Positions 8,291-16,985 of a stretch of 20,339 nucleotides of DNA are shown piece after piece. Origin of the DNA: a virus. Made by a program: the position numbers and the translations under genes. How positions within the stretch are numbered: position 1 is the first letter of the stretch; each line of letters starts with the position of its first letter. The notes beneath the pieces are model-generated. The model did not search any database, was not told the DNA's origin, and saw only the letters and a program-made list of their open reading frames with translations. Where the stretch lies: the IMG/VR virus record IMGVR_UViG_3300025872_000396, positions 1 to 20,339 of that record. The stretch is one strand, 5' to 3'.

Positions 8291-8324
8291 GAAACGACGC
8301 GAGACTGGCATCTCGTGACGTTTC
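8291..8324 (+). promoter_or_regulatory. Long interrupted hairpin before the NUMOD4-HNH gene
   Basis: GAAACG (8291-8296) and CGAGA (8300-8304) pair with TCTCG (8311-8315) and CGTTTC (8319-8324) around a CTGGCA loop, with a 3x3 internal loop: 11 pairs in all. It is followed 14 bases later by AGAGGAG, a true Shine-Dalgarno, unlike the other leaders. Confidence 0.5.
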
Positions 8325-8350
8325 TAACCACTACCAAGAGGAGTTTGGCC

Positions 8351-8950
8351 ATGGCTACAAATAAGCATAGCAGCGTGCCTACAGGGTTTAAGGAGATCCC
8401 TGGGTATAACGGACGCTATTTCATCAATGAGAAGGGCGAGGTGTGGAGTCTTGCCAAATCAAGACTCATGAGTCCGCAAACCAGCGGAAGCAAAGATTAT
8501 CCATGGGTGCTAATCACGGAGAATAACAAGAAGAAACAACCTCGTACTATTCATTATTTAATGCGTCTTACTTGGATGCCTCCTGCGCCCGGGGAAATAG
8601 GGTCTGGTGGCGATAAATGGTGTGTAAATCATAAAGATGGAAATAAACTTAATAATCATATTTCTAATCTTGAATGGACCACAAACAGCGACAACGCAAA
8701 GCACGCTTGGGATAATGGACTGCAAGCCTGTGGAGAGGCAAAGAAAAATGCTAAATTTACATCGCGGCAAATTACAGCAGTTCGTTTGCGCGTGAAATAT
8801 GGTGAAAGCGCTTATTCCATTGCAAAAGAATTAAATGTTTCGCATGGAACTATTAAAAAGATTTGTCGTTTTGATAGTTGGCGCCATCAAGACCTTAATC
8901 TTCGTGGCAGGATCCGGGCAAAGTGGTATAGCAAATTTGGACACGGATAG
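8351..8950 (+). CDS. NUMOD4-HNH homing endonuclease with C-terminal HTH
   Basis: 199 aa. Domains in order: NUMOD4 (FKEIPGYNGRYFINEKGEVWS, split as residues 13-22 and 23-33), HNH nuclease (WCVNHKDGNKLNNHISNLEW, split as 90-99 and 100-109, with catalytic His in V-N-H), and a C-terminal helix-turn-helix (SAYSIAKELNVSHGTIKKIC, about 153-172) of the NUMOD1/IENR type. These free-standing enzymes cut DNA to spread their own gene. ATG 8351 has AGAGGAG nine bases upstream, the best Shine-Dalgarno in the window, which suggests recent acquisition. The last ~20 residues are Arg/Lys-rich and unlike the family's usual end. The stop codon lies inside the first unit of a 27-bp repeat. Confidence 0.9.
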   Translation: MATNKHSSVPTGFKEIPGYNGRYFINEKGEVWSLAKSRLMSPQTSGSKDYPWVLITENNKKKQPRTIHYLMRLTWMPPAPGEIGSGGDKWCVNHKDGNKLNNHISNLEWTTNSDNAKHAWDNGLQACGEAKKNAKFTSRQITAVRLRVKYGESAYSIAKELNVSHGTIKKICRFDSWRHQDLNLRGRIRAKWYSKFGHG

Positions 8951-9153: not shown

Positions 9154-9167
9154 AGGGAGAATATACT

Positions 9168-9620
9168 CTACCTAGCGGCCGTAGATATACCCTACCCAGC
9201 AAGCGTAGATATACCCTACTGGTGACGGCCTTAAGAGAGGCTCACTTGTGACCGTGCTAAGTGAGGCTCACTTGTGGCCGTACTAGGTGTCTCCTATTGG
9301 TGGCGGCCTTAAATGTAGGCTACTGGCAGTGTGCTGATTCCACTTACTTACTGGCGCGATTCTGCCGAGCTTCAGTGAGACTAACTGCCGCGAGTGGCTG
9401 TCTACTCTCACCAGCGTGATTCTGCCGCGATCGCCTATGTTTACCGTTCCGCCGTATTTGTGCTGTCTACCGCTAGGCCTTAGGTGAGCTTTACTGCGCA
9501 GTGCTAGTTGAGCCTCACTGTTTAGCGCTAGTTCTCTCTCACTGTTTAGCGCTAGTTCTCTCTCACTGTTTAGCGCTAGTTGAGCCCTACTGTTCAGCCC
9601 TAAGTGTAGATATTTCAATA
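9168..9620. repeat. Divergent 24-26-bp hairpin-like tandem repeat array
   Basis: About 17 units, each marked by CTAC or CTCACT, spaced mostly 24 bases (9168, 9192, 9216; later 9493 through 9589) or 26 bases (9244 through 9322), with two gaps of 33-34. Units at 9525-9548 and 9549-9572 are identical. Several units fold on themselves with different stems: CTAC/GTAG (9168 and 9192 units), CTCACTT/AAGTGAG (9241) and CACTT/AGGTG (9269). Changing both arms together argues for selection on structure. A HIP1 palindrome GCGATCGC lies at 9428. No convincing protein is encoded; a leftward frame here has an ALNSEREL repeat only because the DNA is repetitive. Confidence 0.65.
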
Positions 9621-11331: not shown

Positions 11332-11760
11332 TCATTTTTCATCTAGAAAATCGCCTTTAGTATTTATACCTAGCAAGTAATCAAGGGCAGCTTGGACAAG
11401 ATCTGGATTGTCATCAAAATGACCAAGGCCAAGATTGCATGATCTACAGATGTAACCACGAAAGGCATCAGTGTTATGACAATGATCAAGCACCCATTCT
11501 TCTGTATAGCGATGGCATATAGGGCATAAACCTGGAGGAGGCACTGGAAATTTTCGTTTTAAGCGAGCACGTAATTTAGTGTGTTGTCGAATGCAGGTTC
11601 TACAACGAGAATCAAGATTATCTTTATTGCGAGGTTGATTAGGAAAAGCGATTAGTGGTTTTGATTCTTTGCAGAGCTGACAAGTTTTAGTTGCTTCAGT
11701 TGCATGTGAATTACTTAAGAGGATTGAGAAGAGATTGCCTTGTAGCAAGCCAGGATTCAT
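11332..11760 (-). CDS. Recombination endonuclease VII-like protein
   Basis: 142 aa from the minus-strand ATG at 11760; a longer frame needs a TTG start. The N-terminal part has a zinc module with CQLC (27-30) and CRTC (53-56), the first half of a common two-domain arrangement. The C-terminal part is Endonuclease VII: CPIC (79-82), VLDHCHNTDAFRGYIC (90-105), RSCNLGLGHFDDN (106-118) and LVQAALDYLL. The HCH and CxxCN positions hold the catalytic His-metal site and structural zinc. T4 endonuclease VII resolves DNA branches; small phage versions are also free-standing homing-like nucleases. It is one of three leftward regions of genes and lies in a gene-poor accessory zone. Confidence 0.9.
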   Translation of the reverse strand: MNPGLLQGNLFSILLSNSHATEATKTCQLCKESKPLIAFPNQPRNKDNLDSRCRTCIRQHTKLRARLKRKFPVPPPGLCPICHRYTEEWVLDHCHNTDAFRGYICRSCNLGLGHFDDNPDLVQAALDYLLGINTKGDFLDEK

Positions 11761-11784
11761 TAAGAGGCAGCGTGCTTTCGTCAA

Positions 11785-12672: not shown

Positions 12673-12747
12673 AGCCATTTGCTAAAATATTGTGAAGCGG
12701 CAACGTTGGCGCGTTCCGCTTCTGGCCACCTACTACTACTAGATGAC

Positions 12748-13326
12748 ATGGCAAAGCTAGCACATCGTTCTCTTCCTTCATTGCAGCTCTTGGAGGATTT
12801 GTTGATTCTTGACCCCGAAAGTCCAAGCTGGCTTTCTTGGCGCAATCCTCGCAGCAGAAAGCTCAAGCCTGGTGACCACGCTGGATGGCAAGATACAAGC
12901 GGAAGTCGCAGTACGGGCTACTTTCAAGTGGGCATTCGAGTGGAAGGAAAGGACGTTCTATTTCTTGGCCACCGCATTGTTTATTTTTTGCATTACAAGG
13001 TTGATCCAAGCGAATATCAAATTGATCACATTGATGGGAATAAATTCAATCACAATCCATTGAATTTGCGTCTTGTTTCCGATTCTCAAAACAGGGCGAA
13101 TGCCCCTAAGAGGAATCAACTCACGTCGAGTCAATTTAAGGGCGTCTGCAGAAATAAGCGTTCAGAAAATAAGCCATGGATGGCATATATTGATTGGCAG
13201 AAAAAGCGTAAATACCTGGGTACTTTTGCCACCGAAGAAGAGGCCGCGATGGCCTACAACAAAGCAGCTTCTGAGCTGCATGGATCATATGCTTTTCTTA
13301 ACGATTTGATCGTTCCGGCGAGCTGA
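12748..13326 (+). CDS. HNH homing endonuclease with AP2 DNA-binding domain
   Basis: 192 aa from ATG 12748 (in-frame TTG 12679 rejected because it would add a poor N-terminus). The HNH core is at about residues 75-118: GHRIVYFLHY, then QIDHIDGNKFNHNPLNLRLV and SDSQNRANA, the standard D-H-I-D-G-N/N-N-L-R pattern. The C-terminus (126-182) is an AP2-type domain: SSQFKGVCRNKR, WMAYIDWQKKRKYLGTF, TEEEAAMAYNKAASELHG. Phage HNH-AP2 proteins are free-standing mobile endonucleases. This one lies 57 bases upstream of the ribonucleotide reductase alpha gene, a frequent target of homing, so it probably cuts reductase alleles that lack it. Confidence 0.9.
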   Translation: MAKLAHRSLPSLQLLEDLLILDPESPSWLSWRNPRSRKLKPGDHAGWQDTSGSRSTGYFQVGIRVEGKDVLFLGHRIVYFLHYKVDPSEYQIDHIDGNKFNHNPLNLRLVSDSQNRANAPKRNQLTSSQFKGVCRNKRSENKPWMAYIDWQKKRKYLGTFATEEEAAMAYNKAASELHGSYAFLNDLIVPAS

Positions 13327-13382: not shown

Positions 13383-14828
13383 ATGAGTTTGAAGGGAAAA
13401 GCGAAGTGCGAAATGATTGCTCGCACTGGTCGAGTGCAGGATTGGCTTAATGATCCAGAAGGGCGGTTAGCCGTAAGTTGCACTACGTTTGCAGTGGAGG
13501 ACTCAATGGAAGGGCCTGATGGCATTGAGGCGTCTTGGCGTTTCGTTAGTCATGCTCTTCGCAATGCTGCTGGCGCTGCTGTAAATCTTTCAAAGTTGCG
13601 CCCCAAAGGCGAAGAAAACGGGAAAGGGCTTGTTGCCAGTGGCCCCGTAAGCTTTGCTGGTATTTACAGCAAGCTGAATGAAGTGTTGCGTCGTGGTGGA
13701 AAATTTAAAAATGGCGCTGTTACTTTGCATCTTGATTACGATCATCCTGATGCCATTGATTTCATCCAAGCTCCGCGAGCTGAACTTCCTTGGGTGAAGC
13801 GCTCTTTGACCGTTGACGAACAGTTTATGGAGAAAGCTTCTCCTGCATTAATGGCAGCGGTTTTGCGCGGCCTTGAAACGGGAGACTTATGGCTAACCAA
13901 GAAGCGTGTTGATAGCAAAGGCGAACGCATTTGGCCAAATGTTTGCGAAGAAATTTGGCTGAAGCATCGTGGTACTTGCTTGTTGCAGCATGTAAATCTT
14001 GGCGCCTGCACCATGGAAAACCTTCAAGGTGCATTTATTGAAGGCATGAAACAGCTCTGCGAGTTGCATCCTGGTACTGGTGTTGGCGATACTGGCGAAT
14101 ATCTTTCCCCGGCTGTCGATAAGCAGGTAGGACTAGGCGTGCTTGGTTTGGCTAATTTCTTGGCTATTCATGGCGTTAGCTACGAAGATTTTGGTAATGC
14201 TCTTGAGGCTTATCTAGCCGAAGACCCGCGTAATTGGAATGATTTCTGGAACGGCACTCTCTCTGGTGATGCTGTATGGCATCTTGATCAAGGCATTCAA
14301 AAAGCAGCGGAAATTGCTCGCGAACATGGCATGGAACGTGCTTTCTGCATTGCTCCCACTGCATCATGTTCCTACCGCTATCTTGACACAAAAGGTTTTA
14401 CTACAGCCCCTGAAATTGCTCCTCCCATCGGCCGCATTGTTGATCGGGATAGTGGCACTTTTGGCGTGGAGCAATTTGATTATGGCGACGTAGAAATTGC
14501 CGCAGAAGTTGGCTGGGATAAGTTCTTTAAAGTGGCCAATGGCTTTGTCGCATTGTTTCAGCGCACAGGATTATTCCATGGATATTCAATGAACACTTGG
14601 GGGGATTTGGTTATTTACGACGAAGCATTCTTGCGCTCTTGGCTAGAATCACCTCAGACGAGCATCTACTACAGCTTGCAGGTTCTCCCGGACATGCAGC
14701 GGAAAGATGATGCGTATGCAGCGCTAGATGAAGACTTTAAGAGCATGTTTGGCTTCAATGATGAAGTTGACGATTCTTCTGAAAGCTGTTCGCTAGATGC
14801 AGGATTTTGCTCTAGCTGCGCCGAATGA
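13383..14828 (+). CDS. nrdA: Ribonucleotide reductase class I alpha subunit (minimal type)
   Basis: 481 aa from ATG 13383; E. coli NrdA is 761 aa. It reduces ribonucleotides to deoxyribonucleotides for phage DNA synthesis. Key residues are visible: C33 (AVSC, equivalent to Cys225), NVCEE at 186-190 (N437, C439 and E441 equivalents), C199 (Cys462), GLGVLGLANFLA (250-261), the substrate-binding APTASCSY (324-331), YY at 429-430 (Y730/Y731) and a Cys-rich C-terminus (C469, C476, C479). The YY pair marks class I rather than class II. There is no room for the N-terminal ATP cone, so no standard activity site. This fits the minimal class I type reported from cyanophages such as S-CBP4. The beta subunit follows. 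Confidence 0.93.
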   Translation: MSLKGKAKCEMIARTGRVQDWLNDPEGRLAVSCTTFAVEDSMEGPDGIEASWRFVSHALRNAAGAAVNLSKLRPKGEENGKGLVASGPVSFAGIYSKLNEVLRRGGKFKNGAVTLHLDYDHPDAIDFIQAPRAELPWVKRSLTVDEQFMEKASPALMAAVLRGLETGDLWLTKKRVDSKGERIWPNVCEEIWLKHRGTCLLQHVNLGACTMENLQGAFIEGMKQLCELHPGTGVGDTGEYLSPAVDKQVGLGVLGLANFLAIHGVSYEDFGNALEAYLAEDPRNWNDFWNGTLSGDAVWHLDQGIQKAAEIAREHGMERAFCIAPTASCSYRYLDTKGFTTAPEIAPPIGRIVDRDSGTFGVEQFDYGDVEIAAEVGWDKFFKVANGFVALFQRTGLFHGYSMNTWGDLVIYDEAFLRSWLESPQTSIYYSLQVLPDMQRKDDAYAALDEDFKSMFGFNDEVDDSSESCSLDAGFCSSCAE

Positions 14829-14855
14829 GAAAGGGGCCTAACGGCCCCTTTCTTG
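14828..14855 (+). terminator. Terminator between reductase alpha and beta
   Basis: AAAGGGGCC (14830-14838), loop TAAC, GGCCCCTTT (14843-14851), with G-C and A-T pairs extending it to the stop codon, then CTTG. It would uncouple alpha from beta or make beta depend on read-through or its own promoter. Confidence 0.75.
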
Positions 14856-14882
14856 CCCAAATCACTTTTGCATTGTTAGAAA

Positions 14883-15623
14883 ATGACCACTGCCATTGCC
14901 TCCCCTTATTCGTCCACCATTGCCAAGAAGAGCCCGTGGCAGGCCGTTGCCGTTGACAAAGGGCAAGTGCTTGAAGGGGCTGAAGAGACGCTGCTCAAGA
15001 TGCTTGCACTGCGCCATCTGGAGATTCCCGTAAAGGAGCTTCTGGAGCAGGGCATGGAGCGTGAGCTTCCTTCTACGCCTGGCATCATTGAAGCGCTGCG
15101 TTCCAACCAAGACGATGAGGACCGCCATTTGGAAGCCCTTAATTACGTCGCTGTCGCCCATGGCACTGATGCCAAGGCCGAGAAGGAAGTCATGAGTATT
15201 CTGCAAGCCTGGAACGACCACCCTGCCCACCCCATTCTTAAGGCGGGCATTATGGAGCGTTCTATCTTCTTCGTGGCGCTACCATTCTTCCGCCAAACTG
15301 GCGATGTTGGTATGCGCACTGTGTCGCAAGACATTTCCAAAGACGAGCGCGTTCATGTGGCGGTGAATGGCATGCTCAGCAAAGAACTTGGCGAGAAAGA
15401 AAGTCAAAGTCTTGACAAGCTTCGTGCTGCCACTGCTGCATGGATGTTTGAAAAGCTTGGCAGTTCTTCCAATAAATGGCTTGATAAGGATTTCTGGCTG
15501 CGTCAGTCCAAGAGTTTGTTTTGGACTGGCAAAGCTGAAGACCTTTCCTCTCTGCGTGCAAGCCGGGCTATAGCTTTTTTTGAGAGTTCAAACGTATCAC
15601 TTCCTAGCTACGGCAGAGCGTAA
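14883..15623 (+). CDS. nrdB: Ribonucleotide reductase class I beta subunit (small, atypical)
   Basis: 246 aa, short for an R2 (375 in E. coli). The ferritin-like metal ligands can be placed by motif spacing: E47 (RHLEIP), E79 and H82 (EDRH), E125 (MERSIFF), E155 and H158 (ERVH). In standard R2 the radical Tyr is four residues after the first ligand His; here that place is L86, though Y88 lies nearby. The C-terminal tail keeps a Tyr (Y243, PSYGRA), the likely equivalent of Y356 that relays the radical to alpha. So the radical may be metal-centred or reside on another residue. ATG 14883 follows TTGTTAGAAA without a Shine-Dalgarno. It is separated from alpha by a terminator. Confidence 0.88.
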   Translation: MTTAIASPYSSTIAKKSPWQAVAVDKGQVLEGAEETLLKMLALRHLEIPVKELLEQGMERELPSTPGIIEALRSNQDDEDRHLEALNYVAVAHGTDAKAEKEVMSILQAWNDHPAHPILKAGIMERSIFFVALPFFRQTGDVGMRTVSQDISKDERVHVAVNGMLSKELGEKESQSLDKLRAATAAWMFEKLGSSSNKWLDKDFWLRQSKSLFWTGKAEDLSSLRASRAIAFFESSNVSLPSYGRA

Positions 15624-15660
15624 TGCTATATTGACCAAGTTCCCGCTATGCATTAGCATC

Positions 15661-15731
15661 GGGCTGATAGAGCTTAAGCCTCTGAAGCGATTAGCACTTG
15701 TTAATCGCTTCACGCTTAAGCCATCTGGCCC
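15661..15731 (+). ncRNA. Long multi-segment hairpin after the reductase genes
   Basis: Nested pairs: GGGC (15661-15664) with GCCC (15728-15731); AGA with TCT; GCTTAAGC (15672-15679) with GCTTAAGC (15714-15721); GAAGCGATTA (15684-15693) with TAATCGCTTC (15702-15711), loop GCACTTGT. That is 25 base pairs in 71 bases. There is no T-run after it. It may be an RNA element, a processing site or a recombination site. I found no match to a family I know. Confidence 0.5.
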
Positions 15732-15770
15732 TGAAGTGTTGGTACACGTTAGGCAGATAGCCTAGAATTC

Positions 15771-15797
15771 CGTGGTTCGATTCCCGGCAGCGCCTTT
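15771..15797 (+). other. tRNA T-arm-like 3' segment (possible att or tRNA remnant)
   Basis: CGTGGTTCGATTCCCGG followed by CAGCGCC looks like the T-arm and 3' acceptor strand of a tRNA: GGTTCGATTCC is the T-loop consensus. Only 3 of 5 T-stem pairs form and I could not find the matching acceptor strand (GGCGCTG) upstream, so it is not a working tRNA. Such 3' ends are typical of phage attachment sites, but no integrase is present in the window. Confidence 0.35.
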
Positions 15798-15798
15798 C

Positions 15799-15996
15799 AT
15801 GATCCGCTATCGCATTGTTCGACGGGCCTCTTTTTTGAATTTAGGCGTGCCAATTTTCGACGTGGAAGAGCGTTGTTGGTGGTGGTGGGAGCCGCGTGGG
15901 ATCTGCGAGTCTTTAGCTGAGGCGGAACTTCGCGTGGCTGAGCTAAAAATGACAAAGCCGATCAAGCGGCAAGTGGTTAAGGAATACAGCCAATGA
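15799..15996 (+). CDS. Small Trp-rich hypothetical protein, 65 aa
   Basis: I chose ATG 15799, since the longer frame from GTG 15772 would translate the tRNA-like segment. The product has a WWWW run in the middle (EERCWWWWEPRGICESL) and a basic C-terminus (KMTKPIKRQVVKEYSQ), with a probable amphipathic helix (AEAELRVAELK). It overlaps the metallophosphoesterase by four bases (ATGA), so the two are translationally coupled. No family is recognised. Confidence 0.65.
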   Translation: MIRYRIVRRASFLNLGVPIFDVEERCWWWWEPRGICESLAEAELRVAELKMTKPIKRQVVKEYSQ

Positions 15997-16550
15997 TCAA
16001 CTGTTGGCTCACGTCAGACAATCACTTTTGCCACGATAAGGCCTATACGTTTTTGAGGCCTGATGGCGAGAAACTGCGTCCATTTAAGGACGCAGCAGAA
16101 GGTGATGCGTTCATGGTGGAGCAATGGAACAAGCGCGTTAAGCCTAAAGATCGCATTTACGTGCTTGGTGACGTGGCAATTGCCCGTCGCGGCTTGAAGA
16201 TCTTGGAGCAGCTCAATGGGAGGAAAGTATTAGTGCGTGGTAACCATGATATTTTCAAGCTGCAAGATTATGCGCAGTATTTTGATGACATTCGTGGATG
16301 TTTTTATCATCATGAATTCATGATGAGCCACATTCCGCTACATCCTGAGCTGTTTAAACAGCGATTTAAAGGAAATATTCATGGTCACTTACATTGTCAT
16401 AACGTGAGACTCCCTGATGGGAGCCTAGATAGGCGCTATCTTAATTGTTGTGTAGAACAACACAACTTCGCGCCCATTCATTGGGACGAGGCGATGCTTT
16501 ATTTCTCCTCCAATGACCGAGCGCCGAACGTTCAACACGCCATTGCGTGA
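15993..16550 (+). CDS. Calcineurin-like metallophosphoesterase
   Basis: 185 aa. All five signature motifs are present: D-N-H in TSDNHFCHD (D9, H11), GD in VLGDVA (D60), GNHD (83-86), H in SHIPLHP (H113) and GHLH (131-134). These coordinate two metal ions in phosphodiesterases, including bacterial 2',3'-cyclic and related enzymes. Small phage versions have been reported, but the substrate cannot be read from sequence; nucleotide or RNA-end processing, or removal of a signalling nucleotide, are possible. It is coupled to the gene before (ATGA) and overlaps the gene after by 38 bases. Confidence 0.88.
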   Translation: MINCWLTSDNHFCHDKAYTFLRPDGEKLRPFKDAAEGDAFMVEQWNKRVKPKDRIYVLGDVAIARRGLKILEQLNGRKVLVRGNHDIFKLQDYAQYFDDIRGCFYHHEFMMSHIPLHPELFKQRFKGNIHGHLHCHNVRLPDGSLDRRYLNCCVEQHNFAPIHWDEAMLYFSSNDRAPNVQHAIA

Positions 16551-16911: not shown

Positions 16912-16985
16912 TACCCTCGGTCAGATTTGAACTGACACTCCTTCGGGCTTAAACCGAATACCTCTTCCGATTGGGCTACGAGGGC
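16912..16985 (-). tRNA. tRNA with anticodon UAA (Leu by anticodon), short variable loop
   Basis: The minus strand folds as a cloverleaf: acceptor GCCCTCG with CGAGGGT (first pair G-U), D-arm GCC...GGT with conserved GG in the loop, anticodon stem TTCGG/CCGAA with loop TTTAAGC giving anticodon UAA, variable region of five bases (GGAGT), T-arm GTCAG-TTCAAAT-CTGAC, discriminator A. No CCA is encoded. By anticodon it reads UUA Leu. Bacterial Leu tRNAs normally have a long variable arm; this one has a short class I arm and a weak 3-bp D-stem. A terminator follows at once. Confidence 0.8.

Follow-up and report, generated by a model that had tools for sequence, protein, structure and literature searches.

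Sequence constraints on the radical site of a class Ø ribonucleotide reductase of cyanophages

How does a ribonucleotide reductase (RNR) start its radical chemistry when its beta subunit has no tyrosine where the radical is usually kept? The question is raised by an alpha/beta gene pair in a viral DNA of 20,339 nucleotides (IMG/VR record IMGVR_UViG_3300025872_000396, positions 1 to 20,339), here called the window. An earlier note had described an alpha of 481 aa with C33, N186/C188/E190, C199, and Y429-Y430 and no ATP cone, and a beta of 246 aa with six metal ligands and Leu86 in the place of the radical tyrosine. The open reading frames, which put the start codon of alpha at the ATG at 13383, and a Pfam search, in which alpha matched the RNR barrel only (from residue 31) with no ATP-cone match, agreed with this account of alpha; that of beta was borne out by the sequence and the alignments. 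The features of alpha are the following.

13383 to 14828, plus strand: class Ø RNR alpha, 481 aa, without ATP-cone, with a C-terminal CxxC (phmmer match to 7urg, identity to S-CBS4, tree)
13479 to 13481, plus strand: C33, active-site reducing Cys, S-CBP4 C30 (alignment to 7urg)
13938 to 13952, plus strand: finger loop N186-V187-C188-E189-E190, with C188 the expected thiyl radical site
13977 to 13979, plus strand: C199, partner of C33, S-CBP4 C196 (conserved in the alignments)
14667 to 14672, plus strand: Y429-Y430 dyad for radical transfer, S-CBP4 Y420/Y421 (conserved in the alignments)
14808 to 14819, plus strand: C-terminal CSSC, C476-C479 (alignment)

It is close to certain that the pair is a class Ø RNR, a group also called clade Ø or Cyano SP. 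In a phmmer search of the PDB, alpha matched S-CBP4 alpha (7urg) with an E value of 3e-186, and the top-scoring structures of class II and of class I with E values of about 5e-6 and 2e-4, respectively. In a tree of 27 alphas, the window fell among the class Ø sequences, and the five sequences each of class I and class II stood apart (support 100/100); this tree, unrooted, without outgroup and with some long branches, shows separateness and not age. The class Ø traits found were the minimal alpha without ATP-cone, the YY dyad together with the C-terminal CXXC, and, 54 nt past alpha, a small ferritin-like gene with L86 and Y243. Sequence, tree, finger-loop and YY residues, and synteny with S-CBS4 thus upheld the membership in the S-CBP4 group that had been proposed, but not the label of a basal class I group, since the group is usually treated as the separate class Ø.

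Conservation in beta was assessed in 175 loci (80 plus 80 viral and 15 prokaryote contigs, partly overlapping) and ten phage records, which after removal of duplicates gave 138 distinct betas. Of these, 137 cover the radical region, and the betas form 69 clusters when grouped at 90% identity. Relatives of beta spanning 80% or more of its length occurred in 56 phage records, and the close phage relatives were S-CBS4, Syn5, S-TIP28, SS120-1, and other cyanophages. In alpha, C33 was Cys in 67 of 67 rows of the first alignment, C188 was kept in 122 of 122 distinct alphas, and the YY dyad was present in all 122 but for one masked letter. In the cryo-EM structure of S-CBP4 this dyad is stacked beside the catalytic Cys, and CXXC or CXC tails are a feature of class Ø (PMC9531940). 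The finger loop NVCLE, the class Ø signature (30 of 35 published class Ø), was found in most of about 121 alphas, versus NVCEE in nine including the window (the others in loci L009, L010, L014, L018, L020, L076, L094, and L096), which gives the catalytic Cys a charged neighbour. In the class Ø alpha of another locus (L149), an intein of 366 aa (Pfam matches Intein_splicing and LAGLIDADG_3) separates V187 from the catalytic C188.

S-CBP4 (7urg; PMC9531940) shares with the window the minimal alpha without ATP-cone, the YY dyad, the NVCxE loop, and the Cys pairs, as well as a six-ligand beta of about 240 aa that has Leu/Phe in the radical position and a Tyr near its C terminus, at identities of about 60% (alpha) and 49% (beta). 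It differs in its NVCLE loop (NVCEE in the window) and CxC tail (CxxC in the window), and, unlike S-CBP4 beta, the window beta ends three residues past the C-terminal Tyr. Identity to the cyanosiphovirus Synechococcus phage S-CBS4 was 68% in both subunits, and the gene order was the same (alpha, beta, and phosphoesterase, followed by a terminase encoded on the other strand); however, S-CBS4 has an NVCLE finger loop, compared to NVCEE in the window, and carries endonuclease VII right after beta, whereas the window has its endonuclease VII-like gene upstream. The podovirus P-SSP7 (Cyano SP), whose identity to the window is about 46% in beta and 56% in alpha, has the same metal pattern in both the first and the second sphere and also lacks the radical Tyr (PMC6370689). 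Its beta, for which a new class I subclass was suggested (Harrison et al. 2019, PMC6370689), has the ligands E42/E71/H74/E117/E147/H150 and the second-sphere residues D70/D146. Class Ø was defined, and S-CBP4 alpha solved, by Burnim et al. (2022, PMC9531940), who reported that its betas have either Phe or Leu in the radical position; according to a 2026 preprint (PMC12918982), the class is yet to be biochemically characterised. The missing radical tyrosine is therefore already published, the window pair is no new discovery, and its novelty is below what the earlier note implied; what is new here are sequence-derived constraints on the radical site, namely that residue 86 is never Tyr, that Y88 appears replaceable, and that D150 stands at the place of Y222 of the class Ic protein of Chlamydia.

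The surroundings of the pair contain the following features.

544 to 1212, 8315 to 8950, and 12679 to 13326, plus strand: three HNH endonuclease genes
9161 to 9285 and 9503 to 9602: short arrays of tandem repeats (units of 24 and 26 bases), in a region with no clear genes
11332 to 11784, minus strand: endonuclease VII-like gene
14828 to 14853, plus strand: terminator-like hairpin between alpha and beta, AGAAAGGGGCC-TAAC-GGCCCCTTTCT (-22 to -24 kcal/mol)
16912 to 16985, minus strand: tRNA-Leu, anticodon taa

One of the HNH genes, with an AP2 domain, is directly upstream of alpha. Many S-CBS4-type relatives also have a hairpin between alpha and beta, of different sequence; none is present where the two genes abut or overlap, as in podoviruses. 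Across the window there were 11 strong short hairpins (stem of at least 8 pairs), mostly intergenic, versus 0.5 expected in dinucleotide shuffles; others lie at 411, 1407, 7454, 7513, 8225, 10711, 11057, and 11977. Identity to the window was 92% in alpha and 66% in beta for one locus (L076), and 81% and 96%, respectively, for another (L004); judged from these identities, the two loci look recombined relative to the window, and alpha and beta appear not to be strictly co-travelling. Insertions of about 400 to 560 nt separate alpha from beta in four loci and were, by eye, homing-endonuclease-like (L052 and L067), endonuclease VII-like (L169), and hydroxylase-like (L175). Microcystis phage Mic1 (L199) has a divergent class Ø-like alpha (46% identity), with its beta about 12 kb from alpha and not adjoining (ORFs 1616 to 2386 and 14599 to 16110, both minus strand). 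In both S-CBP4 (L084) and P-GSP1 (L086), a -1 frameshift at one shared, slippery-looking AAAAATTTT breaks the beta gene; programmed frameshifting was considered, but a homopolymer sequencing error is likelier, because a scan of viral contigs for the site returned the S-CBP4 record alone.

The features of beta are the following.

14883 to 15623, plus strand: class Ø RNR beta, ferritin-like, 246 aa (phrog_6799, AlphaFold model, Foldseek)
14907 to 14909, plus strand: Y9, invariant N-terminal Tyr (Tyr in all 135 class Ø rows covering the position)
14937 to 14939, plus strand: W19, probable relay residue matching E. coli W48 (Trp in 137 of 137)
15021 to 15023, plus strand: E47, metal ligand 1, P-SSP7 E42 (conserved)
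15114 to 15128, plus strand: D78 (second sphere) and E79 and H82 (ligands 2 and 3), P-SSP7 D70, E71, and H74
15138 to 15140, plus strand: L86, radical-Tyr position (H82 + 4), aligned with Chlamydia F127
15144 to 15146, plus strand: Y88, conserved but Phe-replaceable (Tyr in 131 and Phe in 6 of 137 betas)
15255 to 15257, plus strand: E125, metal ligand 4 (kept in 137 of 138)
15330 to 15332, plus strand: D150, place of Chlamydia R2c Y222 (Asp in 136, Glu in 2, including Mic1)
15342 to 15356, plus strand: D154 (second sphere) and E155 and H158 (ligands 5 and 6; conserved)
15609 to 15611, plus strand: Y243, C-terminal Tyr, counterpart of E. coli Y356 (invariant where present)

Beta belonged to phrog_6799, the RNR beta of cyanophages (E value of 3.5e-102 in PHROGs), and had no Pfam domain match. 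This match, that of alpha to 7urg, and the 56 phage records with a beta relative lie far outside what chance would give. The six ligands and D78/D154 were kept family-wide, barring single odd rows and gaps. Position 86 was Leu in 134, Phe in 3, and Tyr in none of the 137 betas; the Tyr at ligand His + 4 that is a trait of classes Ia, Ib, and Ie is thus missing from the window beta, and L86 provides the redox-inert residue at this position that is a trait of class Ic. An AlphaFold model built from a 50-row alignment of window-related sequences had a pLDDT of 90 and a pTM of 0.86 and placed the six ligands across four helices (residues 34 to 58, 68 to 93, 117 to 139, and 142 to 168); folding without an alignment was uninformative (pLDDT of 34). 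When the model was compared with the PDB by Foldseek, the best 38 matches were all R2 proteins, among them the Mn/Fe R2c of Chlamydia and Mn2 class Id proteins (probabilities of 0.98 to 1.00, E values of 2e-3 to 3e-2, and TM scores of about 0.4 to 0.6). Overall, the Foldseek E values of 2e-3 to 5e-2 and TM scores of about 0.4 to 0.58 are modest, a point against the reading preferred below. By sequence, beta found no match in the PDB with phmmer, and its profile gave no significant HHalign alignment with E. coli NrdF, NrdB, or a staphylococcal phage R2; searched against the PDB, the profile reached Chlamydia R2c chains only, and weakly (E values of 0.2 to 0.33). In the register given by this sub-threshold alignment and the ExxH motif, L86 fell on F127, Y88 on 129, and D150 on Y222, the Chlamydia numbers being derived from the alignment register and the published ligand numbers (PMC6370689).

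Where, then, could the oxidising equivalent reside? The earlier note had suggested a metal-centred or a displaced radical, the latter on Y88, two residues past the usual site. The window beta has just three tyrosines (positions 9, 88, and 243). Of these, Y88 is kept in 131 of the 137 betas, but a radical on it is highly improbable because of its natural replacement by Phe and because on an ideal helix its face would point away from the metals. The six Y88F betas came from the isolate S-TIP28 (L091) and from two viral and three MAG contigs (together L149, L167, L173, L176, and L186), represented 4 of the 69 clusters, occurred in both '..ALQF' and '..ALGF' backgrounds and in at least two lineages, and kept every ligand covered, the sequence from L186 being incomplete. 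Y88 stands at +6 from the ligand H82 in the predicted helix 68 to 93, which also contains E79 and L86, and on an ideal helix it would face about 150 degrees away from the metal-facing direction of E79/H82, compared to about 10 degrees for L86. The alignment, weak and below threshold, likewise puts Y88 opposite Chlamydia R2c residue 129 and not at the radical site 127. The displaced radical is not supported, and the metal-centred alternative is, by inference, the best reading. A stored or relayed radical that sits on another invariant beta aromatic (Y9, W19, W110, or W187) is very unlikely. Y9, W19, W110, W187, and Y243 were invariant in the class Ø rows covering them (W205 had a single exception), and Y9 is the sole invariant Tyr besides Y243; however, W19 is simply accounted for as a W48-type relay residue, and Y9 lies in the low-confidence N terminus of the model (block pLDDT of 69) and is Phe in one sequence, the divergent Mic1 beta. 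We know of no precedent for stable radical storage at Y9, W19, W110, or W187.

Resemblance to class Ic raises the further alternative of a standard Mn(IV)/Fe(III) enzyme. Chlamydia trachomatis R2c shares the ligand set, the redox-inert radical-site residue, and the R2 fold; the first-sphere ligands are as in class Ic (PMC6370689), the class Ic references have Leu or Phe at the radical position (PMC12918982), and R2c was the only profile match in the PDB. Chlamydia R2c is nevertheless about 100 residues longer, its sequence similarity is weak (E value of just 0.2), and ligand 2 is preceded by a second-sphere Asp here and by Glu in class Ic (PMC6370689). Moreover, R2c proteins conserve Y222, through which the Mn(IV)/Fe(IV) intermediate is reduced (PMC4118035); every class Ø beta covering the position has Asp or Glu there instead, D150 in the window. 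By sequence, class Ø would therefore be like class Ic at the radical site yet fail in one class Ic marker, and since Y222 is replaced by D150, the Mn/Fe mechanism could not be copied unchanged; a standard class Ic enzyme is accordingly unlikely, and the window beta is most likely not one. The least probable account is that alpha is a B12-dependent class II reductase and beta no radical generator: class II sequences are the nearest non-Ø relatives of alpha, and class Ø alpha genes were long annotated nrdJ, but in S-CBP4 the stacked dyad occupies the adenosyl pocket (PMC9531940), the dyad is kept throughout the alphas, beta follows closely after alpha in almost all loci of sufficient length to show both, and the tree splits class Ø from class II. 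Finally, the oxidant may be held on the metal cluster but activated by a route unlike those of classes Ia to Ie, with no radical Tyr, Y222-type relay, or phage NrdI, an Asp at the relay position, and possibly Y9 or W19 as the electron entry. This is a tentative possibility, rather doubtful at present; if true, class Ø would be a mechanistically separate way to start ribonucleotide reduction.

The reading we prefer, a metal-centred oxidant that is relayed to alpha, is probable for class Ø beta; we infer the identity of the metal, the location of the oxidant, the relay path, and the activity from sequence comparison and the predicted fold. The pair would act as a two-gene alpha/beta enzyme of an S-CBS4-like cyanophage, supplying dNTP precursors in phage replication. 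Beta would bind two metals via E47, E79/H82, E125, and E155/H158, and, because L86 leaves no Tyr at the radical position, the metal centre itself would hold the oxidising equivalent, and most probably this centre is a cluster that contains Mn (Mn/Fe or Mn2). Metal-held oxidants on Mn-containing clusters are characteristic of classes Ic and Id. At each turnover, the equivalent may pass from D154/W19 to Y243, on to Y430-Y429 of alpha, and then to C188, the thiyl radical of which would start ribonucleotide reduction, with electrons drawn from C33/C199 and the C-terminal CSSC re-reducing these two. For this path we take W19, which precedes ligand 1, to be like W48 of E. coli R2, and D154, directly before the ligand E155, to be like D237. 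For the C-terminal beta Tyr corresponding to Y356 a role has been proposed (PMC9531940). Class Ø beta does not have the C-terminal tail by which class I beta binds alpha (PMC9531940), a point against the preferred reading. In its favour, none of 12 related phage records, among them seven contigs of 70 to 80 kb that may be incomplete, had a match to NrdI (PF07972), while control genomes were positive; no glutaredoxin, and no thioredoxin above the cut-off, was found in the related phage records, in which contigs may likewise be incomplete. Because of this lack of phage glutaredoxin and of thioredoxin above the cut-off, host reductants probably serve the RNR.

Apart from the constraints on its radical site, the locus is an ordinary member of a known family. 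Class Ø is, to our knowledge, the smallest RNR architecture reported, and an ancestral position relative to classes I and II has been assigned to it. Because Y88 appears replaceable, position 86 is never Tyr, and the residue at the relay place is an almost invariant Asp, the radical chemistry possible in this family is narrowed, and these conservation results name the residues for mutation.
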